Assembly: GCF_020740535.1 (NCBI RefSeq)
Contig: NZ_CP082362.1
Location: 4,586,501 to 4,650,500, forward strand
From: Streptomyces profundus
GTDB taxonomy: Bacteria; Actinomycetota; Actinomycetes; Streptomycetales; Streptomycetaceae
Direction of reading: 5' to 3'
DNA: 64,000 bases
The translations under genes were made by a program, and so were the position numbers. Below the pieces are notes generated by a model that saw only the letters and a list, made by a program, of their open reading frames with translations, did not search any database and was not told where the DNA came from. Of this stretch, positions 14,531-62,723 are shown piece after piece. Every line of letters begins with the position of its first letter. Position 1 is the stretch's first letter.

Positions 14531-14531
<1 letters not shown>

Positions 14532-18977: not shown

Positions 18978-19027
18978 ACTCGCCGCCCGCTCGGCGGCCA
19001 TCGCCACCCCCCTCTCTCCACCCCCCA

Positions 19028-38664: not shown

Positions 38665-39068
38665 GCGACACCCATCTCGTCGGGGGCTCCTCCGGGCTCC
38701 CTCCGACCGGTCAGTCGGGTGCCCGATACCTCGCGAGCATGGCACGGGCGCCGAGATCCCCTCAAGGCGGTCCCGGGCGGCGCCGAAGCCGGTCCCCGGC
38801 CGGAGTGCGGGGGAGCGCCGGGCGAATCCGGCCGTGGATCGTCCCGGCCCGAACGGGCAGCCAACGGGCCCTCGCTGCCCGAATGTCGAGGTCGCGCGCC
38901 CGAACTTGCGTGGACTGACGGGGCTCCAGAGAATTCAGAGGTTCTCTTGAGCTCAGTTCAGTCCCGACTCTTCTATAAATGAACTTCCGCAACTCAACGG
39001 AAACTTCGGCGGGTTCGACGCGACATAGCCTCAGAAGCCCCTTCCAGTGCGCCGTTGGAGCAGCAGCG
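38665..39068. other. Divergent intergenic region, 404 bp, no gene
   Basis: This region lies between the SGNH gene and the sigma factor gene. Near the sigma gene it is unusually A/T-rich. AGAGAA (38928-38933) and TTCTCT (38942-38947) form an inverted repeat, TTGAGC starts at 38947 and a TATAAA lies at 38974-38979; the latter two are too far apart (21 bp) for a standard promoter. An in-frame ATG at 38979 could extend the sigma factor by 30 residues but lacks a ribosome site. Confidence 0.45.
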
Positions 39069-39674
39069 ATGTCCCACGCCCAATCGCCTCACCACCCTCT
39101 TCCCCGGCCGGCCGCCCTGCCACCGGCGCCGGTCGGCCGGCCGGTGGCCCGTGCCCACCCGAGACTCCCGGCGGCCGAGCGGTACCGCGACCGGCTGCTC
39201 CGGTACGTCAGACGTCTGACGGCCGGCGATCCGCACCGCGCCGAGGACATCGTCCAGGAGACGATGCTGCGCGCCTGGCTGGCCGCCGAGGAGTTCAGCG
39301 GGGAGTTCGCCGGCAAGCAGGAACCCTCCCGGAACGACGACCGGCTCGCCGCCTGGCTGCATGTCGTCGCCCGCAACCTCGCCTTCGACGCCCACCGCCG
39401 CGAGCGGAGCGTTCCGGCGGGCATCATGCCCACCGGTCTGCTCGGACAGGCCGACGAGGGCGTCGACGTGGCCGAGGCCGTCGTCAACCGGGTGGCGATC
39501 ACCCGCGCGTTGGCCGGCCTCAGCCCGCTCCACCGCGACGTGCTGGTCCACGTCCACCTGTGCGACCACTCCCGCGCCGACACCGCACGCCTCCTGGGGA
39601 TACCCGGGGGGACCGTCAAATCCAGGGCGCACTACGCCCTGTCCGCCCTGCGACGGGAGTTCCCGGCAGCATGA
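39069..39674 (+). CDS. ECF sigma factor (SigL-like)
   Basis: This 201-residue sigma-70 family protein has region 2 at about residues 38-105 (YRDRLLRYVRRLTAGDPHRAEDIVQETMLRAW, AWLHVVARNLAFDAHRRERS) and region 4 at about 140-195 (LSPLHRDVLVHVHLCDHSRADTARLLGIPGGTVKSRAHYALSALR). The ATG at 39069 has GGAG upstream. No zinc-binding anti-sigma factor (HxxxCxxC) follows; the next gene, overlapping by 4 nt (ATGA), encodes an anchored protein. It probably directs transcription of the secretion locus that follows. Confidence 0.92.
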   Translation: MSHAQSPHHPLPRPAALPPAPVGRPVARAHPRLPAAERYRDRLLRYVRRLTAGDPHRAEDIVQETMLRAWLAAEEFSGEFAGKQEPSRNDDRLAAWLHVVARNLAFDAHRRERSVPAGIMPTGLLGQADEGVDVAEAVVNRVAITRALAGLSPLHRDVLVHVHLCDHSRADTARLLGIPGGTVKSRAHYALSALRREFPAA

Positions 39675-45727: not shown

Positions 45728-46171
45728 TCAGCCCTGGGTGATCGAGCTGCGGTCGTCGTTCCAGGTGACGGGCGTGCCGCCCAGATCACCGCCGGGCGGT
45801 TGCCAGGGCGGCGCGTCGGGAGTGTCGGTCTCCACCTCGTCGGCGGTCAGTTCGAGACCGCCCTCGCCGTCGATGCTGGAGAGCGTCGCGGCGAAGAGCG
45901 CGGAGTCGTTGCTCTTGAAGGCGTCGTTGATGCCGGTGAACAGATTGGCCCAGTTCTGGATGTTGCTGGCCGCCATCTGCATGGACTTGCTGAACTCCTC
46001 GTAAGCGGTCTTCAGCGCGGGACTGGCCTGTTCCAGGTAGAGGCCGTTGTCCAGCAGCGTGCCCACCTTGGCGAGGAGGTCGTAGATCTCCGGCACGATG
46101 ATGTTGCACTGCGCGCTGAGCTTGCTCGATGTCTCGGCGATGCCGGCGTAGTCGGCTGAGATGTCTGCCAT
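45728..46171 (-). CDS. WXG100-superfamily-like protein without WXG motif
   Basis: This 147-residue protein has a ~100-residue helical hairpin (MADISADYAGIAETSSKLSAQC ... SPALKTAYEEFSKSMQMAASNIQNWANLFTGINDAF) followed by an acidic Pro/Gly tail. Size, start and helix pattern fit ESAT-6/WXG100 partners, but the turn reads LDNGLYLEQA, with no Trp-X-Gly. It is the last of three genes on the minus strand and converges on the EssC/EccC-type gene. It is probably secreted or a chaperone-like partner of the giant protein; no experimental basis is visible. Confidence 0.7.
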   Translation of the reverse strand: MADISADYAGIAETSSKLSAQCNIIVPEIYDLLAKVGTLLDNGLYLEQASPALKTAYEEFSKSMQMAASNIQNWANLFTGINDAFKSNDSALFAATLSSIDGEGGLELTADEVETDTPDAPPWQPPGGDLGGTPVTWNDDRSSITQG

Positions 46172-46547: not shown

Positions 46548-47528
46548 TCAGTCCTCCACCTCCTCCCAGTCCGACTCCCACTTCTTGTCGTCCGGACCGC
46601 TCTTGGGGTCCCTGGTGTACTCGGTGACCGTGACCTCCTCGTCGCCGTCGTCGTCCGTGGTGGTCGTGGTCACCTTCTGGGTGCCGGACCCGTCGTCCTC
46701 GATGGTGTACTCGGCCACGCTCTCGGTGCCGTCGGGGCCGATGGTGGTGACCGTGTAGTCGCGGCGGTCGAAGGTGTCGTCGTCGTCCGCCGGGCCGCTC
46801 GGGTCGGGCGGTCCCTCGTACTCGACCGTCGTGGTGACCGTCCTGCCGTCCGAGGTCTCGATGACGGTCTTCTCCTCGGTGACGTTGTACTCGTCGTCGT
46901 AGGTGAGGTACACGTCGACGCTGCTGCCGTCCTCATCGGTGATCTGGACGCGGTTCGGCGGGTGCTCCGGCGGCTTGTCGGGCTCGGGTCCCGGCCACGG
47001 CGGCCGGCCGTCGCCCAGGTCCTTCTGCCACTGCTCGCACCAGCCCGGGGGGTCGTCCACCGAGCAGACCTCCGCCGGGTCGGCGTCCGGATGCTCGGCG
47101 AAGTAGTCGCCGGCGCCGATCTCCTCGGCGTAGTCGTCCCAGGTCTCCTTCTTCTCCTCCCAGTCCGAGTACGCCTCGCGCTCCCCGAGCCACTTGTCCA
47201 GCTCCGAGTAGCCGGTCATGGTCATGGCGCCGGCGGCGATCCCGGCGTCCTGCTCCAGCAGCACGTCGGCGACCCCGCCGAACATGTCGCCGAACTGCTT
47301 CAACTTGTCCTTGCCGTCGTTGATCCGCGTCTTGGACAGCCCGTAGAAGACCTGGAACTGGTACGAGAGGTTGTAGTTGCCGAAGATCGACTGGTTGGAG
47401 CTGGCGGTCCCGTCGCCGATCTCCTGCCACGCGTCCGCGCCGCCCGCCGAGTCGGCCCGGTCCGCCAGGTCGTGCAGCCCCCGCTTCATGGCGTAGAGCT
47501 TGTCGTAGTCCATGGCGAAGTCGGCCAT
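46548..47528 (-). CDS. Putative secreted acidic protein of T7SS-like locus
   Basis: This 326-residue protein starts with a ~100-residue helical region of T7SS-substrate type (MADFAMDYDKLYAMKRGLHDLADRADSAGG ... LKQFGDMFGGVADVLLEQDAGIAAGAMTMTG). A Trp/Glu-rich segment follows and then about 150 residues of acidic, Thr-rich beta-hairpin repeats (VTEEKTVIETSDGRTVTTTVEYEG, GTQKVTTTTTDDDGDEEVTVTEYT). It ends WESDWEEVED. No known domain is recognised. The ATG at 47528 has GAGGGAGG upstream. It is the first gene of the three-gene operon divergent from the giant gene, sharing a 196-bp promoter region. Confidence 0.75.
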   Translation of the reverse strand: MADFAMDYDKLYAMKRGLHDLADRADSAGGADAWQEIGDGTASSNQSIFGNYNLSYQFQVFYGLSKTRINDGKDKLKQFGDMFGGVADVLLEQDAGIAAGAMTMTGYSELDKWLGEREAYSDWEEKKETWDDYAEEIGAGDYFAEHPDADPAEVCSVDDPPGWCEQWQKDLGDGRPPWPGPEPDKPPEHPPNRVQITDEDGSSVDVYLTYDDEYNVTEEKTVIETSDGRTVTTTVEYEGPPDPSGPADDDDTFDRRDYTVTTIGPDGTESVAEYTIEDDGSGTQKVTTTTTDDDGDEEVTVTEYTRDPKSGPDDKKWESDWEEVED

Positions 47529-47724: not shown

Positions 47725-50700
47725 ATGCCTCGACCTCCGGACTGGAGCGCGCTCGATCTGGGCAGCGACCCGACCCCGGGGGACCCGGACCGGCTGGAGG
47801 CGCTGATCGAGGCGCAGAAGGCCATCGTCGACCTCGCCACCGAACTCGACGACGACCTCGAAGAGCTGATGCGGGAGAACAGCGAGTTCTTCATCGGCAA
47901 GACGGCGGAGGCGCTGCGCGAGGAGATGGACGACCGGGTGCGCAAGTTCGTCCAGAGCTTCGCCGAGGCGCACGAGTCGGTCCGCACGGCGCTGACCACC
48001 TACCACGAGGCGATGGTCACCCAACAGGGCATCGCCGACGGGGCGTTGAGCGCCGTCGACGGCATGGACGAGGACGACGCCGAGTTCGCCGGGCACAAGG
48101 AGACCGCCGAGAACGCCGGGGACGCCCTGGAGGCGGCGGCGGCCACGGCGGCCAGCGCCATCCAGGAGGCCGGCTCCAACATCAGCTCGATGATCGACCC
48201 GTGTGAGGCGTTCTGGAAGTTCCTCCAGTTCTTCGTGATCGCGCTGATCCTCCCGGCGATCATCCTGGGCGGGCCGACCGCCATCCTCTTCCTCACCCTG
48301 AGCGCGGTCCTGCTGGTGAAGACCGCCATCGACTTCGCCGGCGGCCGGGCGAGCGTCACCGAACTCGTCCTCTCCGTCCTCGGCATGCTGGTGCCCACCA
48401 CCAGGGGCCTCAACGTGGCCGGTATCACCCGGGCGATCAGCAACTTCGGCAGCAAGGGCTGGGCGGGCGCCGGCGGTTCCTTCCGGCAGCTGGTGATCAA
48501 CGTGGGGAAGGGCTCCTGGGGCTCCTTCAAGGGAGCCGGCAGCATCATCGCCAACACCCACAAGCACCTGAGGATCGGCGGCGCCTGGTCCAGCAGCCCC
48601 ATGGCCCTCAAGATGACCTGGGTCAAGGACTTCGGCACCTATATCGCCGCCCACTTCACCCGGTACGGCTGGACGGCGATCTTCCTCCCCGTGAACGTCG
48701 GCGAGATCGGCGTCAAGTCCTTCTCCGGGCTGGCCAGCGCCTTCAAGATCTCGCTGTGGAACCGCGGCGTCCTCGGCCAGTACCGGGCCGGCGCCGTCGT
48801 GCACGGCACCAACGTCATCGACGTGCGCGCCCTGCACGGCTTCGACAACATGGGCCGCCCCCAGGTCAACTCGGCCCTGTGGGCGCGCTACCAGCCGGGC
48901 GGCTCCAACGTGGCCAACTACCTCGCCGCGCCCCCGAAGCACGCCTGGAGCAACGTCAGCGGCGCCCCCATCATCACCATCGGGGGCGGCTTCACCCCGT
49001 CCAGCGCGTTCGGCTCCGTCGCCGACCTCACGCTGGCGCCCCCCACGCCCGGCAACTCCTCCACCGTCTCCCTGCTCGGGCCTGGCGGCCGGTCCCCGAT
49101 CCCGTCGCCCAACTCCTCGGTGGCCGATCTGTCGCTCCCCACCCCGACGCTGCCCAGGGGCCTGGACCGTCCGGGCGGCACCATGAACGACCTGCCCACC
49201 CAACAGGGGGGCCAGGGCGGATCGATGGCCGACCTGCGGCCCGTGCAGCCGATCGCGGTGAGCTTCGCCGACCAGGGGCGCGGCCTCGCCCCGCCGAGCC
49301 CCGTCGTCGCCAACACCACGGCCGACGGCATCGGCAACACGGCGGGCGACTTCTACATCGCGGGCACGCCCACCGTCGTCACCCACATGCCCTCGCCCAG
49401 CGGGCAGATCGTCGGCGTCCAGACGCCGATGCCCGCCAGCATGCCGACGCCCACCGCGATCACCACCCCCACGGCGACCCCGACGCCGGCCGGCGCCTCC
49501 GTCACCTCCACGACGCCCGTCGTCACCGCGACCCCGACCCCGACAACGACGCCCGCCCCCACCGCCACGACCACCTCGGCCATCAGCGGCGGCGTCACCC
49601 CGACCTCGATGCCGAACGGCAGCACCGTCCACGTCGGCGGCATCGTGCCCAACGGCAGCGTCGGCGCCGGTGGCAACGCCACGATCGACGTGTCGCAGGG
49701 CTCGTTCTCCCCGATCCGGCTCCAGGACGGGGCGGACGGGTCGCGGATCGCGTCCGCCGGCGGCTCCCAGGGCCAGCTGCCCGTCGTCAACATCGGCGGG
49801 ACGCAGCAGTTGGGCGAGATGTCGCCCATGCCGGCGGCCGGCGTCACCCCCGCGCGCGGCGACGTGAGCGGCATCACCGCCGCCCACCACGGCGGCGGCA
49901 ACGTCCCGGGCGCGCTGTCGGGGGGGCAGCCCGTCTCGTTCGTCGGCGGGCAGTCGGGGGTCCCGGGCGGCGCCGGCCGTGGCACGGCGGGGGACGGCGC
50001 CCAGGATCTCAACCTCGGCTCGGTGTCACCGATCCCGGTGCACTTCGCCGACCAGGGCAGGGGCCTCGGCACCCCGGACATCGCCCAGGCCGGCGCGGGC
50101 GCCCGCCAGTTCGCCGACACGCACCTGGGCCCGGTGGACGCGCCGGCGGCCCCGGGCGCGCGGGGGACCGCGCCGGAGGGGAACCCCGGCGCCGTCACCG
50201 ACGACGTGGTGGCCGTGGTGCCGACGGTCAGGCCGCTGCCGTCCGCGTCCGGCGGCGGCCAACTCGGCGATCTCCCCGGGCAGGCGGGCGGCGGCGCCGT
50301 CGGCCGCCCCGGCGGTGCGTCGGTGGCGCAGGCCACCGGCGACCTCGCCGCTCCCACCCAGGCGCTCGTCCCACCGGTGAACGCCGGGGCCGTGGGCGGC
50401 AGCGGCGCCGCGCCGGCGGTCCGTCAGACCGTCGGGGAGATCACCACCCCGGTCGACGGCATCCGGCCGGTCAACCTCAGCGCCGTCGGCACCCGCGCCG
50501 CCGCCCCGGTCGAGGGCGTCCCGACCGCCCCGCCCCGCGCGGGGGACGGCGCCGGGGCCGAGGGCGGGCCGCCCGGCCGCCAGGGCGGCCAGGCAGAGCC
50601 CGGCTCCGGCGTGGTGACGGTGGAGAGCATCGCCCCGCTGGCCAGGTCCGCCACCCCGACGAACACCCCGCCGCCCGCCGCGACTTCGCAGGCCCTGGTG

Positions 50701-53700
50701 CCGGACGGGCCGCCGCCGCCCGCGCCGGCCCGGGCGGGCGGCGGCGGCCCGGCCGCGATACCGCCGGGCGCCGGAGCGCACCCCCACGGGGCCGGGCCGC
50801 TGGCCGGCCACACCGTGGTCACGCCGCCGGGCGCCACGCCCTGGCTGGTCGGCCCCGGTGGGGCACGGGTCGTGGGCGCCGACGCCACCCGGGTCGGCGA
50901 CCTCGGCTGGTCGTTCACCGCCCCGGGGCAGCGGGTCGGGGCCGTGGTGGACTCCTCGGGCCAGCGCACCCACGACGTGGTGCCGCTGACCGGGCGGGGC
51001 GACCAGACGACCGGGGAGTTCGCCGCCGTGCCGCTGGGCGGCGACCGCACCCCGATCCTCCTCAGCCGTCAGGGCGAGCCGGACCCCGCCCCCGTCGGGT
51101 TCCTCGGCGACTCCTTCGCCGTCCACCGTCCGGGCGGCACCATCCACTTCCACGATCTGGACGGCGCGCTGCTCGGCAGCTCCCACCGGCTGCCGGGCCC
51201 GGGCGGCCACGCGCTGATGGTCGACCCGGGGGCGCGGCGCGCCTATGTGGCCGGCCCGGACGGGGAGCCGCTGGCCGGCGCCCAGGTCAGGCGGATCGGC
51301 GGCGACGGGCTGCTGGTCGAGCGCCCCGGGCGGCCCGCGCTGCTCGTCGGCGCCGACGGCGTCCGCACCCACGACGTGATCCGGCTGCCCGAACAGGGCG
51401 GCCACCGCTGGACGTTGGCGATCCCCAGCGAAGGGCACCGAGGCGGCCCCGTGCTGATCAGGGGCGTCGACGAGGTCGTCCCCGCCGGCCCCGGCGGTTC
51501 GGTGACCCCCCTCGGCCAGCACGGCAACCTGGTGCGGATCGGCGGCGGGGCGCCGCTGCTCGTGGACGACGCGGGCCGCGTCGCCCCGGCGGTGACGCTC
51601 AAGAACCGGAACGGCGACGTCACCGATCTGGTGCTCGCCCCGGCGGCCGGCCGCACCGAGGCGCCCGCCGTGTACCGGAGCGACGGCCGGCTCTTCAGCG
51701 ACGAGGTGACGAGCGGGTTCGACGGCAACCGGATCGTCGTCCAGAGCGCCGCCACCTACACCGTGCACGGCCCCGACGGCGCCCTGCTGGGCTCGGGCGC
51801 TGGCCGCGCCGGCGGCCCGCTCGGCGCGGGCAACCGGCTGACGGTCCCCGGGCCCGGCGGCCGTCCGGGGGTCGTCGGCCCCGACGGCGCCCCGGTGCCG
51901 GGCGCGGCCGTCGTCCCCTGGGACGGGGACGCGTTCCTGGTGCGGGTGCCGGGCCAGCGCCCCGGCGTGGTCGACGCCTCGGGCGTCCACACCCACGACG
52001 CGATCCGGCTCGGCACGGGCAACGGCGACCCCCACGGCTTTGTCACCGTGCCGCTGCGCGACGGCGGCACCCCCACGGTGCACGGTCCCGACGGCCGGCC
52101 GATGCCGCATGTGACGGCGGGCGTCGACGGCTCCTCGCTCACCATCCGCCCGGCGGGCGGGAGCACCACCACGCTCTACGACCTGACGGGCGGCTTCAAC
52201 GGGCTGCGGCACCAGCTGGTCGGCGGCCACGAGATGGTCCTGTCCGCCGGCGCGGCGCCCCGGGTCGTCGACGCGGCGGGGCAGCCGGTGCCGGGCTCGT
52301 CCGTGGCCCGGGTCGGCGACGGCGCGGGACACCTGGTGCGGGTGCCGGGCCATGACCCGGTCGTCATCGACGCCGCCACCGGGGCCCGCACCCACGACGT
52401 GGTGGAGCTGCCGGGCCAACCGGGCGCGGCGGCCGACGAGTTCGTGCTCATCCCCAGGGGCGGCACCGGCCCCGCCGTCGTGGTCCACGCCGACGGCCGG
52501 CTCGTGGACGGTTCGCTGGTGACTCCGCTGAGCACCGGCGAACACCTGGTGAAGACCGGCGACACGACCCGCCTGATCGGCGCGGACGGCTCCGTCGGCC
52601 ACACGGTGCGGACGCTGACCGGCCAGCAGGGGCGCCCGGACCTGCTGGTGCTGGTCCGCTCCGACGGCCAGGTCTACCCCCACCCGCGCGACGTGGACGG
52701 GGTCCCGCTCACGGACCGGCGGGTGGAGTACCGGGAGTCGACGCCCCAGCCCACGCGCGCGAATCCCCATCCGGCGACGGAACGCCAATTCAGCGTCTAC
52801 ACCGCCGACAACCGGGGCGCGCACTTCTCGGCGGACACCGGCCGGTTCACCGGCGAGGGTCCCGGCGGCGCCGGGATGCACCGGGTCGGCCCCGACGAGT
52901 ACCGGCTGCTCGGCCCCGAGGACCAGGCGGCGGTCCGGCGGCAGCTCATCGAGTCGTCCGGCCGTCCCACCGTCACACCGCCGGGCCTGGACGACACCGA
53001 CCGGATCGTCTTCATGATGCCCACCACGCGGATCGACCCGCCCGTCCAGGGCCGGCCAGCCGTGGACCCGGCGGGGGCGCACCCCCACGGTGGGCTGCCG
53101 CTGGGCCGCGCGGACGGCGACGGGCCCCAGGACTTCCTCGTCACCCCGGAGGCCGGCGGTCCGCCCGTGCTGCGGGGCCCGGCGGGGGAGGTCAGGGGCG
53201 AGGCGCCGACGGTCGAGGGGAACACCGTCACCGTGGTCCGGGGGAACATCACCCACCGGTACGACGCGACAACCGGCGACTGGCGGCTGCGCACCCACCA
53301 GTTCGACGCCGGCCCCTGGGCCAACCACGAGGTGCGGGTGCCCAACACCGCGCTCGACGCCGACGCCAGGCCCGCCCTCGTGGACCGCGCCACCGGACAG
53401 CCGGTGCCCGGCACCTCCGTGGACGAGCTGGGCGACCAGAGCTTCCGCGTCACCCACGACACGCACGGCGGCGGCGTGGTGGTGGACCGTGCCGGCGCCG
53501 AACTCGGCACCAGCCAACGCCTGTGGGACTTCCAGGGCCAGGCCACCGACGACTACGTCCTCGTGCCCGCCCGAGGCGCCGACCCGGGCGCCGCCGCGAC
53601 CCCGCCACCGCCGGTGCTCCAGACGCGCGGCGGCGACGTGATCGACGGGGCCCGGGTGATCCCGACCGGGGACGGCCACCGGGTGACCAGGGTGGGCTCC

Positions 53701-56700
53701 CCGGAGACGGTCGCCGTGCACGGCCCGGGCGGCCGGCTCCAGCACCTCGACCACGGCATCAGGGGCGGCACCGCGCTCGACGGCAACCGGCTGATCGTGC
53801 CCCCAGGGGGCAACGCGCGGGTGGTGGACGACACGGGCAGGCCCGTGCCGGGGACCGAGGTGGTGGCGACCCGCCCCGATGAGCATCTGATCACCACCGG
53901 CGACGAGTTGATCGGGCTCGGCCGCACCGGCGGCGCCGCCGACGTGCCGCTCCCGCTCGGCGGCCGGCACGCCGACGGGCCGGATCTGACCCTGCACACC
54001 GGGACCGGCGGCGCCGGGCCACGGGTGGTCGAGCGGCAGCCGGGCGGCCAGGTCCAGATCGCGGGCGCCGGGGAGATCACGTTCGCCGGCCGGGAGATCC
54101 AGATCGTCCGGGGCACGAGCACCGCCGTGCACGACGCGGCGGGCGGCGCGCTGCTCCGCGATGTCCACCGCGTCGCCGGGACGCCCGGCTTCGACGCCGC
54201 CGACCTGGTGGTCCCAGGCCCCGGCGCCCGCGCCGGGGACGGCGCGCCCCGGCTGGTGCGGGCCGGCGCCGAGGTGCCGGGCAGCCAGGTCAGCGAACTC
54301 CCGGGCGGCGGCTACCTGGTGCGGGCCGACGGCACCCAGCGGGTGCTGGACCAGCACGCCCAGCCGCACCCTGGCGCCCTGCCGGTGACGCTCCCCGACG
54401 GCACGGCCGGCATCGCCGTCCGCTCCCAACAGGCGGACGGACGGCATCTGTTCATCGACTCCAACGGCCGCCTGGACGGCCACCACAACCCGCGGTTCGA
54501 CACGGCGGACGACGGCACCGGGACCCTCGGCGTCACCTGGGAGCGCGGCACCCTCGACTACCGGATCACGGCGGGCGAGGCCGGCCCCGGCAGCCAACTG
54601 GTCCAGGAGAGCTACCCGGTGCGGGGCGGCGGGCCCGCCAGGACGCTGGAGATCGACCACCGGGGCGGCGCCCCGGTCGCCCAGTTCCGCGCCGGGGACG
54701 GGACGACGACCCCCGCCGTCCCGCAGCGCTGGGACGGCTACGCCGGCTACCGGGCCGAGGCGGGCGACGGCGGCGCCCACACCGTGGTCACCCACCGGGG
54801 CCAGGTCACCCACAGCGCCGTGCCGCTGTCCCCCCGCCACGGCGATCCGGACGCCTTCGTCTTCCGGCCGGTCGCCGACGGCCCCGGCGGCCCCGGCGGC
54901 CCCGTGCTGCGCCAGCCGGACGGCGCCGGCCACCCGGCGCGGTTCCACCCGGGCCGCGACAGCTGGGAGTTCACCAACGACGCCGGCGTCACCCGCCGGC
55001 ACGGGCTCGACGGCGGCTTCGTCGAGGAGACCTTCACCGCCAGGGGCGGGACGTTCAACAACTACCGGCTACGGCTGCCCGCCGACCTTACGGGGGCCAC
55101 CGTCCGGCCCCCCGGCGGCCGGCGTGAGATTCCGGTCACCGTCGTCCCCCAGGCCGACGGCGGTATGCGGGTGCACCACAACACCCTGCACGCCGCCGTC
55201 AACCCGGCCACCGGCGCCGTGACCCACGAGGTGCTCACCCTCAGCAGGGCCGGCGACGCCCGGCCACCGACGCATGTCTTCACCGATGTGGCCGACCACC
55301 GGACGCTGCCGGCGCCCCGCGCGGACGACGGCGCCGACGTGCCGAACACCACCGTCCACCGGACGGCGGACGACGATGTCCTGCTGCGTCGGACGGACAA
55401 CCCGACGACCGAGTACTTCGACGGCGTCACCGGCGCCTTCCGGTTCACCGAGACGACGCTGGACGGCGCGGGGGACGCCCTGCCGGGGACGTTGGTCCGC
55501 ACCCATGAGACGGTCCGCGACGGCCAGGTCTTCCGCGCCTTCGACCTGCTGAACCACGACAGGACCGCGGTCGGCGGCTGGTCGGTGACGGGCCGCCAGG
55601 CGATACCGACCAGCCCGGACCCGGGCACCGGCGTCCGGGTGCGCAACGCGGACCGCTCCGAGACCTGGGTGATCGACGCCCGCGGCCGGGTCGTCGTCCA
55701 TATCGGCGCGGCCGACGCCGCCACCCACGTCCGGGTCGGCCGCGTCTTCGACTGGGAGGGCGGCGGCCCGCCCACGGTCACCACCCACCGGGTGGTCGCC
55801 CTGGGCGACAGCGGTGGCCGGCGCTTCTTCGACGTCGACGCGGCGGGCCGGCCGGGGGCGGTGCGCGACGGCGAGCTGAACCGGCTCGACGGCCAACGAC
55901 TCACCCCGGAGGGCGCCAACTTCCGCTCCACCGAGCACGCCGCCGGACTGCGGGACGGCGAGTGGAAGGACTACGGCATCGACGGCCGCCTGGTGGAGCA
56001 GCGGATCAACATCGTCAACCGGGGCGTGCGCCAGGACGACCACTTCTACAAGGTCACCTACCAGCACGACGCCGGCGGGAAGATCACCGGCGGCACCTGG
56101 GAGCACTGGCGTCCCAACCCCGCCTACCGGCCCCCGGCCGACGGGGCGCCGGCCACGGTCCCCCGCTCCGTCGCGCCACCGCCCGTCGCGCCCCTGCTGG
56201 ACCGGGGCCGAGTGGACGTCAAGGGCGTCAACGAGGGGCATATCACCCTGCTCACCAACAACGTCGACGGCCTGCGCGGCTTCGTCTTCGAACGCCGCCC
56301 GCTGCCCGGCGGCGGCAGCCTGGACGCGCACGCGCCCGGCACGGTCGAGAGCTTCGTCAACACCTACGGCGGGGTGCGGATCGGCAAGAACCAGCGCGAA
56401 CGCTGGCAGGAGCTGGACGTGAACGGGAACGCGGCCGGGCACGGCATCCGGATCTGGGGCACCAGCAAGAAGACGTTCTTCGACTACCACGACGGCTGGC
56501 ACATCTCCCGCTCCCAGTCCGGCCCCGTCCACCACTACCGGGAGACCCCGCAGGGCGGCTACATCCTGGCCCACCGCGATCCGGGCAACGCGTTCTCGTT
56601 CAAGGCCGGCGAACAGGGCCGCTGGTACCGCTACGACGCCGACTTCGCGCCGCAGGCCACGGGGGAGCGCCGCTGGGGGGCGTTCGGCCACGGCTGGAGG

Positions 56701-59544
56701 GACCGGATGCCCGATCCGCGGACCGGCGATCTCAGCCTGGTGGGCGAGAAGACCGGCGGATACGCCACCCACAACATCCGCAACTTCCAGTCCTTCGAGC
56801 TGGGCGGGGACGGGCTGCCCAAGGCGAACGGCGGCTGGATCACCGTCTCCCCGCAGGGCAAGGAGACCAGCGTCGGCCGGGTCGAGCCCGACGGGGGCAT
56901 GTTCCGGAACCACCGGAACGCCGAGCAGCGCCCGCCGAACTTCTACCGCTGGCTGCTCTCCCCTGAGTTCCGCAACGTGGACACCGGCGCCCGCGAGGGG
57001 CTGCACTTCCTGCTGCCGAACGGGTTCTTCCACCGGAACCACCGCTTCACCACCGACGGCAACCACGCGGCCTTCATGATGGACAGCCGGTACCAGACGT
57101 TCGACTTCCAACGCACCAACGCCGCCGGGGAGATCGTCCAGCGGGGCATCCAGGGCATCAGCTCGCGCGGCTGGAACACCGTCACGGTGCCGTCCGGCGG
57201 GCGGATATCGGGGGAGACCAGGCCGCTGACCAACGGCAACACCCTCACCGTGGGCGACGATGTCGCGCTGCCACCCGGCGCCGTCCGGCACGCCGACCAC
57301 CTGCCCTGGACGGAGGGCCCCGGCAAGCTGTCCGGACACCGGACCTTCGACACCGAGCACTTCGTCAATCCGCCGGCCGGCGTCAACAAGGACCGCAACC
57401 AAGTGGCCTGGCAGGACCAGTTCCGCGCCGACGTCCCCCCGAACGGCGACTGGTACACCAGGGCGGCCGGCGCCGAGTGGCAGGTCGCCCGGATGGGCTT
57501 CAAGGACGGCAACATCCTCGACTTCCGCCCCCGCCCCGCCGAACGGCCCGCCGGCACGGCCGGCAACGGCGACCTCGACTTCCAGCGCACCGTGCACGGC
57601 GACCACCCCGCCCCGGCGGGCGGCAACCGGCCGGCCGCCAACGCCTACACGCACAGCGACTGGGTCCTCTACAACCACCACGGGAAGCTGCTGGGCCGCC
57701 AGGACACCTTCCCCGGCATCGGGCCCGGCGGCGCCGACCTCCAGGTCGTCAGCCGCTACAAGGACAGCCCCCTGGGGGCAGGGAAGATCGCCTGGACGGG
57801 GAGCGACGGGACCAGCGGATACCGCAAGCTCGCCTCGCGGAACGACATGGGCCACCACAACTACTTCGACCGCGAGTCCTACCGGGACTTCGTCAACACC
57901 CCGACCGGCCCTCAACTGGTGCGCGAGGTGCGGCTGTTGGGGGACAACACCACCGTGGTCTCCTGGAGGTCGCGGGCCGGTGCCGACGGTGCGCCGGACG
58001 AGTGGCGCTGGAACAAGGTCGACCGCCACGGCAACATCATGTCCTTCGGCGCCCCCGAGCAGCGGATCAGGCACTGGTTCGACGACATGCGGCGCTGGGA
58101 GGACCGCGTCGTGGACATCCCCGCCGGCCGCGCCGACCCGCCGGCGGGCGCCTACACCAGCCCCGGTGGCGGTCACACCGTCGTCCAGGAGCTGCCCGTG
58201 GAGGTCGGCAGCGCCCTGCGGCAGGCGTTCAACTACAAGCCGCTGCGCACCCGGGAGTACTTCCCCGACCCCGCCAGCCTGACCGGCCTCGGCCGCACCC
58301 AGGACAACCTCCGTGCCCTCACCTGGAAGGAGTTCGAGGGCGGCGCCGTGGCCCGCCGCAAGACCCCGTTCGGCGACGACGGCTCGTTCCAGGAGCTGGA
58401 GAGCATGTCCAAGCAGTGGCGGCGCTGGGTCCTGGACACCGAGACCAACCAGTGGAAGGTGATCACCGAGCGGTCGGTCGCCGGCTATGTGCGGGAGCTG
58501 CCCGCCTCGTCGTTCACCGCCGAGGGCGCCGGCCGGTTCGCCGGCGACCTCCGGTACTCCGGTCGGGAGACGTACTACATCGGCGTCATGAACGAGTACC
58601 GCGGCTTCGAGCGGATGTACCGACAGCCACGGCGCACCCCCTGGGGGTCGCCGGTGACGGAGACCGGCGAGTCCACCTACACCCCGTTCGCGGTGCGGAA
58701 CATCCAGCACATGTTGGTCGAGTTCGGGCAGGAGTTCGTCCTCGACTTCCTGGTGACCCTGGCCGTCCTGGCCGCCCTGCCGGGCGAGTTCACCTGGACC
58801 GACGTGGCGCAGGCCGCGTTGAGCGCGACGATCTCCAGCTCCGTCAAGACCAGCTTCATCGGAGCCCACAACCTGGCCGCCCAGCACACCCAGTTCCGGC
58901 TCGGGCTCAACTGGCAGGACCGGGGCTTCCCCTACCGGTTCCGCCAGGACGACGACGACTGGGCGGGCGAGTGGGCGTCGAACGAGTTCGTGCTCCGCTG
59001 GCGCGGCGGCACCTACGACTTCATCAAGGACGGCTTCGTCGCCGCGCCGCTCGGCGCCTTCCTCGGCAACCTGGCCGCCCTGGAGGTCTTCGGCATCAAG
59101 GACTCCGAGGGCAACAGGCACGACGTCTCGATCAGCGAGGCCGCCCTGCTGGCCGGCGCCGCCGCCGCCAGCGCGGCGTTCGGCACGGTGGTCACCGGCA
59201 TCGCGAAGAACTCGCTCCAGAACACCGCCGCCACCCGCTGGTACCACCGGCAGGGGGCCATCGACTTCACGTTCGCGCCGATCGTCACCAAGTTCATCGA
59301 CAAGTCCATCGGCATCCTCGTCCTGGCGCCCTTCGTCCGCGACTCGATCGGCGTCGTCCCGCCCACGACCGGCGTCCAGGCGGGCACCCCGGTGGAACCC
59401 CCGCCCCTCCCGGACGGGTCCGTGGTGGCGGCGGCCATGCTGGAGCCCCCGCCCCTGCCCGAGTTCGGCACCGACCTTCCCGTCCTCGGCCACCTGAGCC
59501 CCTACCCGCCGCCCGTGATGCCCGACTGGGAGAACACACCGTGA
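47725..59544 (+). CDS. Giant (3,939-residue) T7SS-associated protein with beta-rich repeats
   Basis: This single uninterrupted 11.8-kb gene starts at the ATG at 47725 (GAAGGGA ribosome site). Residues 1-160 are helical and resemble T7SS-substrate leaders (FFIGKTAEALREEMDDRVRKF). Two or three membrane helices lie at about 163-210. From ~420 to ~1040 the chain is Pro/Thr/Gly/Ser-rich, with TP-rich runs at 572-622 and the motif FADQGRGL twice (~513 and ~773). From ~1040 to ~2250 degenerate modules recur, marked by PVPGxxV (near 1183, 1391, 1522, 1893, 2040, 2183) and THD(V/A)(V/I) (near 1080, 1214, 1422, 1555). Then ~1,400 residues rich in Trp/Tyr/Asn/Gly beta-type sequence, a hydrophobic region at about 3665-3880 and a Pro-rich tail. 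No toxin or enzyme domain is recognised. It overlaps the next gene by 4 nt. Confidence 0.85.
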   Translation: MPRPPDWSALDLGSDPTPGDPDRLEALIEAQKAIVDLATELDDDLEELMRENSEFFIGKTAEALREEMDDRVRKFVQSFAEAHESVRTALTTYHEAMVTQQGIADGALSAVDGMDEDDAEFAGHKETAENAGDALEAAAATAASAIQEAGSNISSMIDPCEAFWKFLQFFVIALILPAIILGGPTAILFLTLSAVLLVKTAIDFAGGRASVTELVLSVLGMLVPTTRGLNVAGITRAISNFGSKGWAGAGGSFRQLVINVGKGSWGSFKGAGSIIANTHKHLRIGGAWSSSPMALKMTWVKDFGTYIAAHFTRYGWTAIFLPVNVGEIGVKSFSGLASAFKISLWNRGVLGQYRAGAVVHGTNVIDVRALHGFDNMGRPQVNSALWARYQPGGSNVANYLAAPPKHAWSNVSGAPIITIGGGFTPSSAFGSVADLTLAPPTPGNSSTVSLLGPGGRSPIPSPNSSVADLSLPTPTLPRGLDRPGGTMNDLPTQQGGQGGSMADLRPVQPIAVSFADQGRGLAPPSPVVANTTADGIGNTAGDFYIAGTPTVVTHMPSPSGQIVGVQTPMPASMPTPTAITTPTATPTPAGASVTSTTPVVTATPTPTTTPAPTATTTSAISGGVTPTSMPNGSTVHVGGIVPNGSVGAGGNATIDVSQGSFSPIRLQDGADGSRIASAGGSQGQLPVVNIGGTQQLGEMSPMPAAGVTPARGDVSGITAAHHGGGNVPGALSGGQPVSFVGGQSGVPGGAGRGTAGDGAQDLNLGSVSPIPVHFADQGRGLGTPDIAQAGAGARQFADTHLGPVDAPAAPGARGTAPEGNPGAVTDDVVAVVPTVRPLPSASGGGQLGDLPGQAGGGAVGRPGGASVAQATGDLAAPTQALVPPVNAGAVGGSGAAPAVRQTVGEITTPVDGIRPVNLSAVGTRAAAPVEGVPTAPPRAGDGAGAEGGPPGRQGGQAEPGSGVVTVESIAPLARSATPTNTPPPAATSQALVPDGPPPPAPARAGGGGPAAIPPGAGAHPHGAGPLAGHTVVTPPGATPWLVGPGGARVVGADATRVGDLGWSFTAPGQRVGAVVDSSGQRTHDVVPLTGRGDQTTGEFAAVPLGGDRTPILLSRQGEPDPAPVGFLGDSFAVHRPGGTIHFHDLDGALLGSSHRLPGPGGHALMVDPGARRAYVAGPDGEPLAGAQVRRIGGDGLLVERPGRPALLVGADGVRTHDVIRLPEQGGHRWTLAIPSEGHRGGPVLIRGVDEVVPAGPGGSVTPLGQHGNLVRIGGGAPLLVDDAGRVAPAVTLKNRNGDVTDLVLAPAAGRTEAPAVYRSDGRLFSDEVTSGFDGNRIVVQSAATYTVHGPDGALLGSGAGRAGGPLGAGNRLTVPGPGGRPGVVGPDGAPVPGAAVVPWDGDAFLVRVPGQRPGVVDASGVHTHDAIRLGTGNGDPHGFVTVPLRDGGTPTVHGPDGRPMPHVTAGVDGSSLTIRPAGGSTTTLYDLTGGFNGLRHQLVGGHEMVLSAGAAPRVVDAAGQPVPGSSVARVGDGAGHLVRVPGHDPVVIDAATGARTHDVVELPGQPGAAADEFVLIPRGGTGPAVVVHADGRLVDGSLVTPLSTGEHLVKTGDTTRLIGADGSVGHTVRTLTGQQGRPDLLVLVRSDGQVYPHPRDVDGVPLTDRRVEYRESTPQPTRANPHPATERQFSVYTADNRGAHFSADTGRFTGEGPGGAGMHRVGPDEYRLLGPEDQAAVRRQLIESSGRPTVTPPGLDDTDRIVFMMPTTRIDPPVQGRPAVDPAGAHPHGGLPLGRADGDGPQDFLVTPEAGGPPVLRGPAGEVRGEAPTVEGNTVTVVRGNITHRYDATTGDWRLRTHQFDAGPWANHEVRVPNTALDADARPALVDRATGQPVPGTSVDELGDQSFRVTHDTHGGGVVVDRAGAELGTSQRLWDFQGQATDDYVLVPARGADPGAAATPPPPVLQTRGGDVIDGARVIPTGDGHRVTRVGSPETVAVHGPGGRLQHLDHGIRGGTALDGNRLIVPPGGNARVVDDTGRPVPGTEVVATRPDEHLITTGDELIGLGRTGGAADVPLPLGGRHADGPDLTLHTGTGGAGPRVVERQPGGQVQIAGAGEITFAGREIQIVRGTSTAVHDAAGGALLRDVHRVAGTPGFDAADLVVPGPGARAGDGAPRLVRAGAEVPGSQVSELPGGGYLVRADGTQRVLDQHAQPHPGALPVTLPDGTAGIAVRSQQADGRHLFIDSNGRLDGHHNPRFDTADDGTGTLGVTWERGTLDYRITAGEAGPGSQLVQESYPVRGGGPARTLEIDHRGGAPVAQFRAGDGTTTPAVPQRWDGYAGYRAEAGDGGAHTVVTHRGQVTHSAVPLSPRHGDPDAFVFRPVADGPGGPGGPVLRQPDGAGHPARFHPGRDSWEFTNDAGVTRRHGLDGGFVEETFTARGGTFNNYRLRLPADLTGATVRPPGGRREIPVTVVPQADGGMRVHHNTLHAAVNPATGAVTHEVLTLSRAGDARPPTHVFTDVADHRTLPAPRADDGADVPNTTVHRTADDDVLLRRTDNPTTEYFDGVTGAFRFTETTLDGAGDALPGTLVRTHETVRDGQVFRAFDLLNHDRTAVGGWSVTGRQAIPTSPDPGTGVRVRNADRSETWVIDARGRVVVHIGAADAATHVRVGRVFDWEGGGPPTVTTHRVVALGDSGGRRFFDVDAAGRPGAVRDGELNRLDGQRLTPEGANFRSTEHAAGLRDGEWKDYGIDGRLVEQRINIVNRGVRQDDHFYKVTYQHDAGGKITGGTWEHWRPNPAYRPPADGAPATVPRSVAPPPVAPLLDRGRVDVKGVNEGHITLLTNNVDGLRGFVFERRPLPGGGSLDAHAPGTVESFVNTYGGVRIGKNQRERWQELDVNGNAAGHGIRIWGTSKKTFFDYHDGWHISRSQSGPVHHYRETPQGGYILAHRDPGNAFSFKAGEQGRWYRYDADFAPQATGERRWGAFGHGWRDRMPDPRTGDLSLVGEKTGGYATHNIRNFQSFELGGDGLPKANGGWITVSPQGKETSVGRVEPDGGMFRNHRNAEQRPPNFYRWLLSPEFRNVDTGAREGLHFLLPNGFFHRNHRFTTDGNHAAFMMDSRYQTFDFQRTNAAGEIVQRGIQGISSRGWNTVTVPSGGRISGETRPLTNGNTLTVGDDVALPPGAVRHADHLPWTEGPGKLSGHRTFDTEHFVNPPAGVNKDRNQVAWQDQFRADVPPNGDWYTRAAGAEWQVARMGFKDGNILDFRPRPAERPAGTAGNGDLDFQRTVHGDHPAPAGGNRPAANAYTHSDWVLYNHHGKLLGRQDTFPGIGPGGADLQVVSRYKDSPLGAGKIAWTGSDGTSGYRKLASRNDMGHHNYFDRESYRDFVNTPTGPQLVREVRLLGDNTTVVSWRSRAGADGAPDEWRWNKVDRHGNIMSFGAPEQRIRHWFDDMRRWEDRVVDIPAGRADPPAGAYTSPGGGHTVVQELPVEVGSALRQAFNYKPLRTREYFPDPASLTGLGRTQDNLRALTWKEFEGGAVARRKTPFGDDGSFQELESMSKQWRRWVLDTETNQWKVITERSVAGYVRELPASSFTAEGAGRFAGDLRYSGRETYYIGVMNEYRGFERMYRQPRRTPWGSPVTETGESTYTPFAVRNIQHMLVEFGQEFVLDFLVTLAVLAALPGEFTWTDVAQAALSATISSSVKTSFIGAHNLAAQHTQFRLGLNWQDRGFPYRFRQDDDDWAGEWASNEFVLRWRGGTYDFIKDGFVAAPLGAFLGNLAALEVFGIKDSEGNRHDVSISEAALLAGAAAASAAFGTVVTGIAKNSLQNTAATRWYHRQGAIDFTFAPIVTKFIDKSIGILVLAPFVRDSIGVVPPTTGVQAGTPVEPPPLPDGSVVAAAMLEPPPLPEFGTDLPVLGHLSPYPPPVMPDWENTP

Positions 59545-61841
59545 CCGACGACCGCATCCGCGTCGCGCCCCGCACCAGGGGCGCGCACCGGACCATCACC
59601 CAGGCCCTCGGCGCGGCCCCGGACGGGGCGGTGATCAGCATCGCGCCGGGCGAGTACCACGAGTCCTTCCGACTGATCCGCCGGGTGACGCTGGTCCCGC
59701 AGTACGGCAACGGCTCGGTGACCATCGCCGTGCCGGCGGCGGCCGGCGCGCTGACCGTCGCCGCCCCCAACTGCCGGGTCCGCGGCCTGGTCGTCCGGGG
59801 CACCGACCCGGGGGAGACGCTGCTGCGCGTCGAGGACGCGGCCGGCCTGACCCTGGAGGACTGCCTCGTCACCCACGGCCGGGCCGAGGTGCTGGGCTCG
59901 CGCACCGTCGTGCCGGGGGCGGGCCGGCCGGTCGGCGACATCCCGCTCGACCACGACCTGGCCACCGAGCTGGCCGACCCCACGGCCGGCGGCGTCCTGG
60001 TGACCCGCCGCACCCGGCTGCGGGCCGCCCGCCACACGGCGCTGCATGTCACGGGCGACGCGCTGGCCCGTCTTGACGACACCAGCATCATGGACGTGGA
60101 GGGGATCGGCGTCGCCGTCTCGGGGTCCGCCGTGCTCCGCGCCGACCAGCTGCGGGTGCACGGGGGTTCGGGCTCGGCGCTGCGGGCCCTGGACGCCTCC
60201 CGGGTGCTGCTGCGCGGCAGCGGCCTCTTCGGCGCCGGCCGCAACGGGGTGCTGGTGCAGGACGCGGCGGAGGCGCTGCTGACCGACTGCCGGGTCGAGA
60301 ACGCGGCCCGCTCCGCCGTGCGTCTCGACCACACGGCGCGCGCCCAGATCGAGGAGTCCACCCTCGCCGGCGCCAGGCTGTCGGGCGTCGAAGTCCGCGA
60401 CCAGGCACGGGTGATGATGCGCGGCGTCCGGATCAGCGGCGGCGAGACGGGGGTGCGTCTGCGCTCCCAGGAGGAGTCGGTGCTGCTGCACTGCTCGGTG
60501 ACGGGCCAGCAGGGCAACGGCATCGAGCTGGCGGCCGGCGCCGACCCGCGCGTGCGCGGGGTGCGGGTGGCCCGCACCGGCAAACACGGGGTGAGCGTCG
60601 GCGAGAGCTCCCGTGGCACGTTCGACCACTGCGATGTGATCGCCAGCGGCTTCCCCTCGATCCATGTCGGCAGGGACGCGGCGCCCCGCTTCCGTGGCTG
60701 CCGGGTCTTCGACTCCGCGCACGACCTCGGCGTCGCCGAGGACGCCAACCCGACGTTCGAGAACTGCGTGGCGATCAACGTCGCCGCACCCCGGCTCCCC
60801 GGCGCCCCGCGCGGCGGCGCCGCCGCGCCAGGCGCCAGGCAGCCGGGTCCTGGCCGCCAGGGCCGGGACGCAGGGCCGCCCCGTGGGCCCCAGGGGCCCA
60901 CGGGGCCCGCGGGGCCCACGCGCTCCGGCGGGCGGGCCGCGGCCACGCCCTCCGGCCAGGCCGCGACCGCGCCGGGGTCGGCGCACCCCCGGCAGGGCTC
61001 CGACGACGACGCGCCCGAGGTCGAGTCGCTGACCGATCTGCTGGCGGAGCTGGACGAGTTGGTGGGTCTTGAGAACGTCAAGCGGGACGTCGGCGGCATG
61101 GTCAAGCTGATGCAGACCGTCCGGATGCGGCAGGAGGCCGGGCTGCCGGCGCCGCCGCTCAGCCGCCATCTGGTGTTCGCCGGCAACCCCGGCACCGGCA
61201 AGACCACCGTGGCCCGGCTCTACGGCCGGCTGCTGCACGCCCTCGGGCTGCTCTCCCGGGGCCATCTGGTGGAGGTCGACCGCAGCGCGCTCGTCGGCGA
61301 GTACATCGGCCACACGGGCCCCAAGACCACCGAGGCGTTCCAACGGGCGCGCGGCGGCGTGCTGTTCATCGACGAGGCGTACGCGCTGACGCCCCCGGGG
61401 GTCGCGCAGGACTTCGGCATGGAGGCCATCGCCACCCTGGTGAAGCTGATGGAGGACCACCGCGACGAGGTCGTCGTCATCGCCGCCGGCTACCCGGAGG
61501 AGATGGACCGCTTCATCGGCTCCAACCCGGGCCTCGCGTCCCGGTTCACCCGCAGCCTGCTGTTCACCGACTACTCGACGGAGGAGCTGGTGCGGATCGT
61601 GGAGCACCACGCGCGCCGGCACCGCTACGACCTCACCGAGGGAGCCCGCTCCGCGCTCGCCACCCACATCGGGGCCATCCCCAGGGGCGAGCGCTTCGGC
61701 AACGGACGCACCGCGCGCCAGCTCTTCCAGCAGATGACGGAGCACCAGGCGATGCGGGTCGCCGAACTGACCGCGCCCAAGGACCAGGAGCTGATGGCCC
61801 TGGACGAGAACGACCTGCCCGTGCCCCTGTCCACGTCCTGA
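59541..61841 (+). CDS. Fusion of right-handed beta-helix and EccA/CbxX-type AAA+ ATPase
   Basis: This 766-residue protein has an N-terminal pectin-lyase-like beta-helix (about 1-410: repeated short strands such as RNGVLVQDAAEALLTDCRVENAARSAVRLDH), a collagen-like Gly-Pro-rich linker (about 430-475, GPQGPTGPAGPTR) and a CbxX/CfxQ AAA+ domain (about 495-766) with LVGLENVKRDV, Walker A FAGNPGTGKTT, Walker B GVLFIDEAYAL, sensor GSNPGLASRF and GRTARQLFQQ. The AAA part matches EccA of ESX systems, which handles substrates in the cytoplasm. The GTG at 59541 overlaps the giant gene stop (GTGA), a strong hint that the two proteins act together. Confidence 0.92.
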   Translation: MTDDRIRVAPRTRGAHRTITQALGAAPDGAVISIAPGEYHESFRLIRRVTLVPQYGNGSVTIAVPAAAGALTVAAPNCRVRGLVVRGTDPGETLLRVEDAAGLTLEDCLVTHGRAEVLGSRTVVPGAGRPVGDIPLDHDLATELADPTAGGVLVTRRTRLRAARHTALHVTGDALARLDDTSIMDVEGIGVAVSGSAVLRADQLRVHGGSGSALRALDASRVLLRGSGLFGAGRNGVLVQDAAEALLTDCRVENAARSAVRLDHTARAQIEESTLAGARLSGVEVRDQARVMMRGVRISGGETGVRLRSQEESVLLHCSVTGQQGNGIELAAGADPRVRGVRVARTGKHGVSVGESSRGTFDHCDVIASGFPSIHVGRDAAPRFRGCRVFDSAHDLGVAEDANPTFENCVAINVAAPRLPGAPRGGAAAPGARQPGPGRQGRDAGPPRGPQGPTGPAGPTRSGGRAAATPSGQAATAPGSAHPRQGSDDDAPEVESLTDLLAELDELVGLENVKRDVGGMVKLMQTVRMRQEAGLPAPPLSRHLVFAGNPGTGKTTVARLYGRLLHALGLLSRGHLVEVDRSALVGEYIGHTGPKTTEAFQRARGGVLFIDEAYALTPPGVAQDFGMEAIATLVKLMEDHRDEVVVIAAGYPEEMDRFIGSNPGLASRFTRSLLFTDYSTEELVRIVEHHARRHRYDLTEGARSALATHIGAIPRGERFGNGRTARQLFQQMTEHQAMRVAELTAPKDQELMALDENDLPVPLSTS

Positions 61842-61856: not shown

Positions 61857-62723
61857 ATGACACGAAAGCGACAACAGTCCGCACCTCGGTTCGCGGCGGC
61901 CTTCGCGCGCAGACCGGCCGTGGCACGCCGGGGACTGCTGCCGGGGCGGCGGGTGTTCACCTCCCTGGTCTGGGGGGTCGCCCTGGTGGCGCTGATCGTC
62001 GGCTCGGTCCGGCTCGTCGGCGTCGTGCTGCCGGGTGGCGACCAGGGCGAACCCGTGGCCGCCCCCGCGCCCACCGCGCCGCCCCCCGAACCCGAGCCCG
62101 AGCCGGCACCCGTGCTCGAAGGGCCGGCGGAACCGCCCGAGGAGCCGACCGAGGAGCCCGAGGAGGAACCGGAGCCGGACCCCGAGCCCGACCCCGCCCC
62201 GCCGCCGCCCCCCGACCCCGAACCGGACCCGGACCCGGATCCGGAGCCAGACCCCGAGCCCGATCCGGACCCGGAGCTCCTCCGCGAGGAGAACGGCCTC
62301 CCCCAGGTCGGCGGCGTCTACGCGCTCCAGAACGCCACCAGATGCCTGGACGTGCCGAACAGCACCACCGAGGTGGGCGGGCCGATCCAGCAGTGGAACT
62401 GCAACGGCAGCGACGCCCAGCAGTGGCTGGTCGGCGGGACCGACCAGCCGGACACCTTCACGCTGTCGGCCATGGGCAACTGCCTGGACCTGCCGTTCGG
62501 CAGCACGGAGCACGGCATCGACATGATGATGTGGCAGTGCAACGGGTCGGAGCCCCAGAAGTGGCGGATCGAGCCACTCGGCGACGGCGCCGTGCAACTG
62601 GTCGCGGTCCTCAGCAACTACTGCCTTGAGGTGCCGAACGCCTCCGTGAGCCTCGGCGAGAAGGTCCGCCAGTGGGGGTGCAACGGCACCCCCGCCCAGA
62701 CCTGGCGCCTGCACCGCCTCTGA
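61857..62723 (+). CDS. Membrane-anchored ricin-type lectin
   Basis: This 288-residue protein has a basic N-terminus, one membrane helix (about 34-56), a ~75-residue Glu/Asp/Pro stalk (EPDPDPDPEPDPE) and a C-terminal beta-trefoil. Three QxW-type repeats are visible: IQQWNCNGSDAQQW, MMMWQCNGSEPQKW and VRQWGCNGTPAQTW, each preceded by a C-L-D/E-V/L-P strand (RCLDVPNS, NCLDLPFG, YCLEVPNA). It should display a carbohydrate-binding head outside the membrane. It starts 15 bp after the AAA fusion stop and is probably the last gene of that operon. A small hairpin (TGACGC-G-GCGTCA) overlaps its stop. Confidence 0.9.
   Translation: MTRKRQQSAPRFAAAFARRPAVARRGLLPGRRVFTSLVWGVALVALIVGSVRLVGVVLPGGDQGEPVAAPAPTAPPPEPEPEPAPVLEGPAEPPEEPTEEPEEEPEPDPEPDPAPPPPPDPEPDPDPDPEPDPEPDPDPELLREENGLPQVGGVYALQNATRCLDVPNSTTEVGGPIQQWNCNGSDAQQWLVGGTDQPDTFTLSAMGNCLDLPFGSTEHGIDMMMWQCNGSEPQKWRIEPLGDGAVQLVAVLSNYCLEVPNASVSLGEKVRQWGCNGTPAQTWRLHRL

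Follow-up and report, generated by a model that had tools for sequence, protein, structure and literature searches.

The window analysed here is a 64,000-nucleotide stretch of Streptomyces profundus DNA (contig NZ_CP082362.1, positions 4,586,501 to 4,650,500), taken from a genome of 7.65 Mb assembled as a single contig. It contains an uninterrupted frame of 3,939 codons and a stop that encodes a giant protein (P0001), and this gene lies in a cluster with genes related to the type VII secretion system (T7SS), among them genes for an EssC/EccC-type FtsK/SpoIIIE ATPase and a protein with a beta-helix and an EccA/SpoVK-like AAA part (Table 1). Openness alone is weak evidence for a gene, because DNA with 73% guanine plus cytosine (GC) yields long frames by chance; the window also holds chance antisense open reading frames (ORFs) of 1,969 and 1,658 codons. 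A chance ORF was, however, ruled out for 47725-59544, which is confirmed as a real gene by codon-position GC (0.72/0.56/0.96, computed on the frame from 47512, with strong codon bias), by homologues (45 in the first homologue search, with many relatives in actinobacteria) and by the ratio of nonsynonymous to synonymous substitutions (dN/dS). Against the copy in Streptomyces sp. NBRC 109706, a 98% match, overall dN was 0.029 and dS 0.059, and dN/dS was about 0.25 in the C-terminal region, 0.32 in the N-terminal region, 0.56 in the middle and 0.67 in the stalk, the two ends being the most constrained, with approximate region borders and with the NBRC 109706 locus beginning near residue 90. A frameshift artefact was also ruled out, as an independent assembly (L095) is open over 3,842 codons and 94% identical. 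The uninterrupted gene reported in the first-pass annotation of the window, which was made from the sequence without database searches, was thus borne out. The same frame reaches back to an ATG at 47512, but the start at 47725 is favoured because of its conserved M[PA]R.xDW beginning and the purine-rich stretch ahead of it.

The membrane helices and the Pro/Thr stalk described in that annotation are present in the protein, as are degenerate repeats and C-terminal helices. Self-similarity in a piecewise self-comparison was confined to residues 496-2208 and was diverged, with 28-49% identity among the matches listed. The C-terminal ~1,200 residues are conserved and are predicted by modelling to end in five long helices, hereafter the tip. 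Searches with the whole protein, against Pfam at E <= 1 and against NCBIfam at E <= 0.1, returned no family, in agreement with the earlier statement that no enzyme could be recognised; Pfam likewise gave no domain for wall binding or sorting, and profile searches of the PDB with the C- and N-terminal alignments gave nothing significant.

Table 1. Features of the giant gene and of its cluster, with positions in the window (aa, amino acids).
Feature	Position	Strand	Basis
Giant protein, 3,939 aa	47725..59544	+	Open frame, codon-position GC, homologues, dN/dS
T7SS signal-like domain, residues 1-155 (DW..L...DPTPGD)	47725..48189	+	Sequence comparison, HHalign
Cys160 codon, sole cysteine of the protein	48202..48204	+	Sequence
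GG-containing membrane hairpin and next segment, residues 165-232, common to T7SS RHS toxins	48217..48420	+	HHalign
Pro/Thr/Gly-rich stalk, residues 420-1020, weakly constrained	48982..50784	+	Composition, dN/dS
Degenerate repeat array, residues 1021-2208, length-variable in the family	50785..54348	+	Self-comparison
Conserved beta-rich region, residues 2700-3650	55822..58674	+	Conservation, model, Foldseek
Conserved tip, five predicted long helices, residues 3655-3874	58687..59346	+	Conservation, model
Extracytoplasmic function (ECF)-type sigma factor, first gene of the cluster; stop overlaps next start	38979..39674	+	Pfam Sigma70_r2/r4; TIGR02937 above cut-off
Protein M, 414 aa, no family match; a single membrane helix near the N-terminus (by inspection)	39671..40915	+	
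EssC/EccC-type FtsK/SpoIIIE ATPase, 1,573 aa	40958..45679	+	PF01580 195 bits; TIGR03928 525 bits
Small protein, 147 aa, ESX-like by place and size	45728..46171	-	No family at cut-off
WXG100-like protein, 101 aa	46179..46484	-	WXG100 22.1 bits, cut-off 27.3
Protein of 326 aa, acidic tail (by inspection)	46548..47528	-	Translation
Beta-helix and EccA/SpoVK-like AAA protein	59541..61841	+	PF13229, PF00004, PF17866; TIGR03922 230 bits
Pro/Glu-rich protein, hydrophobic N-terminal segment (by inspection), ricin-B lectin domain	61857..62723	+	PF14200, PF00652

Profile comparison indicates that the leader and hairpin are homologous to those of the RHS polymorphic toxins of the T7SS. With HHalign, residues 3-251 aligned with the N-termini of these toxins at a probability of 99.6% (E 1.1e-24, 244 columns), and the homology spans the signal, the GG hairpin and the following segment, so that the T7SS-type leader seen in the first reading holds at the level of sequence. 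The giant itself did not match the T7SS_signal family PF21725, either as a whole protein at E <= 1 or as residues 1-240 at E <= 10. Among 15 selected relatives, eight matched PF21725 and two matched LXG at E <= 0.01; P0038 (28.2 bits) and L176 (31.3 bits) exceed the PF21725 cut-off of 27, and an RHS toxin of the source genome (L089), which is among the toxins aligned by HHalign, falls slightly under it with 25.5 bits. That genome contains six further open frames with a related start (1,512-1,568 codons). Two of these were examined: the L089 toxin (frame 14629-19161, 1,510 aa) has RHS repeats and DUF6531, the L092 frame (from 515) is 58% identical to it over the body, and both are encoded within ~10 kb of a second EssC-type ATPase gene (L089:6880-11454). 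The genome-wide searches for T7SS components, which covered EccB and FtsK/SpoIIIE genes, also found a separate ESX locus with EccB at 0.82 Mb. The T7SS_signal RHS polymorphic toxins of Streptomyces, such as L089:14629-19161, resemble the giant in their leader, their hairpin and, in most, a cysteine ahead of the hairpin, and L089 also in having an EssC-type ATPase gene nearby. However, they are ~1,500 aa long and have RHS repeats, an RHS core and DUF6531, whereas the giant has none of these and has a conserved C-terminus.

Given this shared N-terminus, the giant could be a strongly diverged RHS toxin in which the helical tip is the toxin and lies inside an oversized RHS-like shell formed by the middle and the C-terminal beta part. 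The collinear order of signal, hairpin, beta body and C-terminal domain is as in those toxins, and in a Foldseek search with the C-terminal model the first 12 PDB matches were RHS, teneurin and Tc proteins (best E 4e-10). The TM-scores of these weak matches were, however, near 0.1. The motifs DPxG and PxxxxDPxGL are typical of the RHS core; no DPxG was found in residues 2400-3700 and no PxxxxDPxGL anywhere in the giant, nor were RHS repeats found in it by Pfam, and HHalign of the C-terminal part against RHS was negative. Homology of the C-terminal third to a known toxin or RHS family, which the first-pass annotation had named as an observation that would overturn its proposal, was thus not found by sequence. 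The C-terminus is also conserved in most relatives, unlike the variable toxin end of RHS proteins. We consider a strongly diverged RHS toxin improbable.

The 3,939 residues of the giant include a single cysteine, Cys160; for comparison, there are 8 in the ATPase (1,573 residues), 7 in the AAA protein (766) and 8 in the L089 toxin (1,510). In the first set of relatives (P0001 plus 45, two without the N-terminus), a cysteine precedes the hairpin in all 44 N-terminally complete proteins and is the sole one in 43. A wide set of 130 proteins was obtained by uniting C-terminal and N-terminal searches, and 128 of these giants match the N-terminal hidden Markov model (HMM). Among the 128, a cysteine lies at positions 130-200 in 111 and no other cysteine occurs in 80, while the corresponding counts for the N-terminal search alone are 88 and, as sole cysteine, 58 of 105. 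Conservation at this position is 90% or more across 11 RHS-type N-termini in an alignment, and in another such comparison the cysteine was present in 10 of 11 readable rows of 12. The idea that it is a special mark of the giants was dropped, since RHS toxins have it too. EspA, a substrate of the mycobacterial ESX-1 system, is a small protein. It is a T7SS substrate with a single cysteine, as is proposed for the giant, and in EspA this cysteine is reported to make a disulfide homodimer after secretion (PMC2891827). No homology between the two is claimed, and a disulfide in the giant is our proposal. A mostly lone cysteine at a fixed position offers a handle on the dimerisation of T7SS substrates.

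Of the neighbours, the ATPase matched the FtsK/SpoIIIE family at its cut-off and reached 525 bits with TIGR03928 (cut-off 778), with the EccC models likewise below their cut-offs, and its PDB relatives include EccC5 and YukB. The AAA gene, whose GTG start overlaps the stop of the giant, encodes a protein with 230 bits to the EccA model TIGR03922 (cut-off 467), a match that lies in the AAA part only, the N-terminus being the beta-helix. One possibility for protein M, which accompanies the ATPase, is a diverged membrane component of a T7SS. A defence system was considered and rejected; PADLOC, run on six neighbours with the giant excluded, returned FtsK/HerA-type and AAA matches and a 15-bit match to ZorA.

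Conservation of the cluster was counted by tblastn (E <= 1e-3) of the window proteins on 31 loci from 30 genomes, all chosen for holding a giant; further loci, mostly on short contigs, lie outside this count. The ATPase gene was matched in 28 of the 31 loci, at 736 bits or more in 25, with a partial match of 132 bits at the end of the stretch covered in G040; the three loci without a match cover just 1.65-3.3 kb upstream. The AAA gene was found in 29 loci and, with a copy in G129 found separately, in 30, the one lacking it being G040. In G044, G047 and G050 it is located at the opposite side of the giant, and in the 30 named Streptomyces loci a match was present downstream on the same strand within ~1.3 kb in every case, although that of L107 covers only 35 residues. 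The sigma factor (a weak match elsewhere in G042) and protein M were each matched in 23 loci, the 147-aa, WXG100-like and 326-aa small proteins in 25, 17 and 15, the lectin gene in 19 (several weak or distant) and the C-terminal part of the giant in 25. The association with an EssC-type ATPase and with an EccA-like AAA protein that was postulated at the outset is therefore supported, and homologues routinely away from T7SS genes, which would have spoken against it, were not found in the 31 loci, G036 and G050 showing only a short N-terminal ATPase match. These counts describe the genomes of the 31 loci; the relatives in Kribbella and in the Micromonospora group are known from their proteins alone.

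The near-constant co-occurrence with the ATPase and AAA genes would also be expected if the giant were a structural part of the secretion machine, such as a needle, a tape measure or an envelope conduit, and the membrane hairpin near the N-terminus and the ruler-like combination of fixed ends and variable length fit this as well. However, the leader is a signal of the substrate type, the genome's other EssC-type locus is accompanied by ordinary RHS toxins and yielded no giant, and some relatives contain enzymes (see below), so that such a role appears very improbable.

The ends of the family are largely fixed and its length is variable. Of the 128 giants of the wide set, 99 have a match to the tip HMM, as do 76 of the 105 from the N-terminal search alone; the tip ends at most 133 residues (median 27) from the C-terminus. 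Lengths in the wide set range from 2,176 to 6,709 residues, near the limits of the search itself, and the family as a whole extends from ~2,200 to 15,831. The upper value comes from G129, in which a frame of 15,831 residues from the leader start, with the same leader and tip and only two cysteines, lies on a single contig (G129:C1:1375714-1423391, minus strand; L057/L056/L123/L124); self-similar stretches account for 13,189 of its residues, and some of them share 95% identity over 300 residues. To our knowledge it is among the longest bacterial frames. At E <= 0.001, 31 genomes out of 392 from Streptomyces had a match to the C-terminal 440 residues, which in two cases was marginal. As short carriers of the tip, only G090 and G151 were found (~600 codons, E ~1e-3) and the candidate was rejected, the G090 ORF looking unrelated by inspection; a weak hint of a common origin of the tip and the N-terminal hairpin was later not upheld. 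The giants of G036, G110, G072, G084 and G083b share the cluster genes and the N-terminus and gave no match to the C-terminal part of the window's protein. We also noticed that the C-terminal halves of G036, G110 and G072 resemble one another and look enzyme-like by inspection, and that eight proteins of Micromonospora, Solwaraspora and Plantactinospora (P0106-P0109, P0111, P0115, P0117, P0122) have ~5,100-5,700 residues, a leader and a cysteine at 165-182 and no tip match.

Further analyses revealed enzyme domains in some relatives, probably including actin-cross-linking and peptidase domains. P0075 of Kribbella amoyensis (5,188 aa), whose source name is RtxA toxin/VgrG1 family protein, has the leader, a tip at 4733-5131 and a precomputed PF16671, which we take to be actin cross-linking; its piece 1251-1557 matches the VgrG chains 4dtd, 4dtl and 4e1f (E 4e-65), presumably actin-cross-linking domains. 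Precomputed Pfam matches place PF05547 (presumably peptidase M6) in P0085, P0089, P0092 and P0093, PF13582 (presumably reprolysin) in P0093, and the scabin-like ADP-ribosyltransferase family PF22596 in P0127; at the end of the other giant locus of G083, its second (L182), the latter half of PF22596 was matched (E 1.1e-12). P0128, which has no tip match, carries Gln_amidase (glutamine deamidase) at 1813-1916 and, near its end, what we take by eye to be a Fic-like motif. P0130 stands apart from the set, with 15 cysteines and six further accessions. The Tox-PL in the UniRef name of P0010 was discarded, as no such Pfam match was found at E <= 0.01. The enzyme load is thus one or two domains in some relatives and, by Pfam, none in P0001.

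Taken together, the giant is best read as a substrate or effector carrier of its locus and not as apparatus. More specifically, we propose, at even odds, that it is the dedicated substrate of the EssC-type T7SS cluster and belongs to an effector or carrier class N-terminally related to RHS polymorphic toxins. The observations as a whole agree more closely with a class of T7SS substrates that share a base and differ in the interior than with a part of the apparatus or a plain fibre. Of the undescribed surface or export apparatus that the first-pass annotation had suggested, the T7SS coupling stands, while the apparatus is disfavoured by the toxin-type N-terminus, the enzymes in relatives, the weak Foldseek matches to RHS, teneurin and Tc proteins and the giant actinobacterial multi-toxin proteins noted in 2012. 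Against a substrate or carrier it weighs that no enzyme is recognised in the window's protein and that the ATPase matches of G036 and G050, two of the 28, proved on a recount to be short and N-terminal only (78 and 50 bits), the body not being found in the stretch covered. The recount also slightly lowered some ratios and left our assessment unchanged.

Because no enzyme is seen in the window's protein, a real share remains for the reading that the giant is a surface fibre, exported by the T7SS and anchored in the membrane or wall, which as an adhesin or as part of an aerial-hypha or spore-surface layer would use its tip for binding or assembly and leave neighbours unharmed. The 15 relatives scanned also lacked enzymes, the conserved tip, the Pro/Thr stalk, the adjoining lectin gene and the ECF sigma factor would suit such a fibre, and length drift is expected of stalks. 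On the other hand, the N-terminus is common to toxins, P0075 with its leader and tip holds an actin-cross-linking-type domain inside, and Pfam revealed no domain for wall binding or sorting. Although a fibre is the less likely of the two, it deserves to be kept in mind beside the substrate or carrier.

If the giant is a substrate or carrier, its DPTPGD leader would be recognised by the EssC-type ATPase, probably as a pair with the small WXG100-like proteins. For the steps after recognition, including export, dimerisation, membrane insertion and the target, we infer the following. The beta-helix/AAA protein would unfold or recycle the complex; the chain would be exported, with the GG-containing hairpin holding or inserting its base in a membrane; and Cys160 would link two copies outside the cell by a disulfide. 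A spacer, subject to drift in length through duplication, would be formed by the Pro/Thr stalk and the repeat array, with cargo enzymes sitting in the interior or at the end in some relatives, and the C-terminal beta region and the five-helix tip would contact and perturb the target membrane, killing the target or admitting the cargo.

Several known systems resemble parts of this proposal. MARTX-type toxins have fixed ends with interchangeable effector domains inside and use a different secretion route. The giants share the plan of fixed ends and variable interior, and one relative has a VgrG-structure-like domain; however, neither an RTX repeat nor an autoprocessing protease was recognised by Pfam in P0001. 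TelE and TspA are Firmicute proteins and much smaller than the giant. Both are reported to be LXG substrates of the T7SS with membrane toxicity (TelE, PMC10434224; TspA, PMC7456083), and they resemble our proposal as T7SS substrates acting on membranes, a likeness by description and not by comparison of the tip. Zhang et al. (2012; PMC3482391) divide polymorphic toxins into stalked and unstalked ones and report giant actinobacterial multi-toxin proteins, the longest with 13,652 residues (SACTE_5178), so that giant size and toxin-type cargo are already known. As described there, those proteins resemble this family in size, in being actinobacterial and in toxin-type enzymes, which here occur in some relatives; they carry several toxin enzymes per chain, whereas the window's protein has no recognised toxin domain, and SACTE_5178 was compared by description only. 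For the dedicated cluster, the constant ends with length to 15,831 and the lone cysteine, no description was found in the titles and abstract openings of the open-licence papers retrieved.

We tentatively extend this to a broader view, which is less likely than not to hold in full: the giants may form a separate actinobacterial T7SS branch, with one cluster per giant, of MARTX-like carriers with a lone-cysteine base for export and dimerisation, a tip active on membranes and an interior into which repeats (total to 15,831 residues) or enzymes are added. If true, this would be a ruler-like, cargo-swappable contact weapon in Gram-positive bacteria. The giants annotated as hypothetical proteins in Streptomyces, Kitasatospora and other actinobacteria are tied by these results to one conserved secretion cluster and a testable mechanism, and their natural length range of ~2,200 to 15,831 provides a test of the role of length in a contact weapon or a fibre. 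In addition to the lectin gene of the cluster, a second copy of the Pro/Glu-rich ricin-B protein, with 66% identity, is encoded ~7 kb past the cluster (L091:5892-6794, minus strand).
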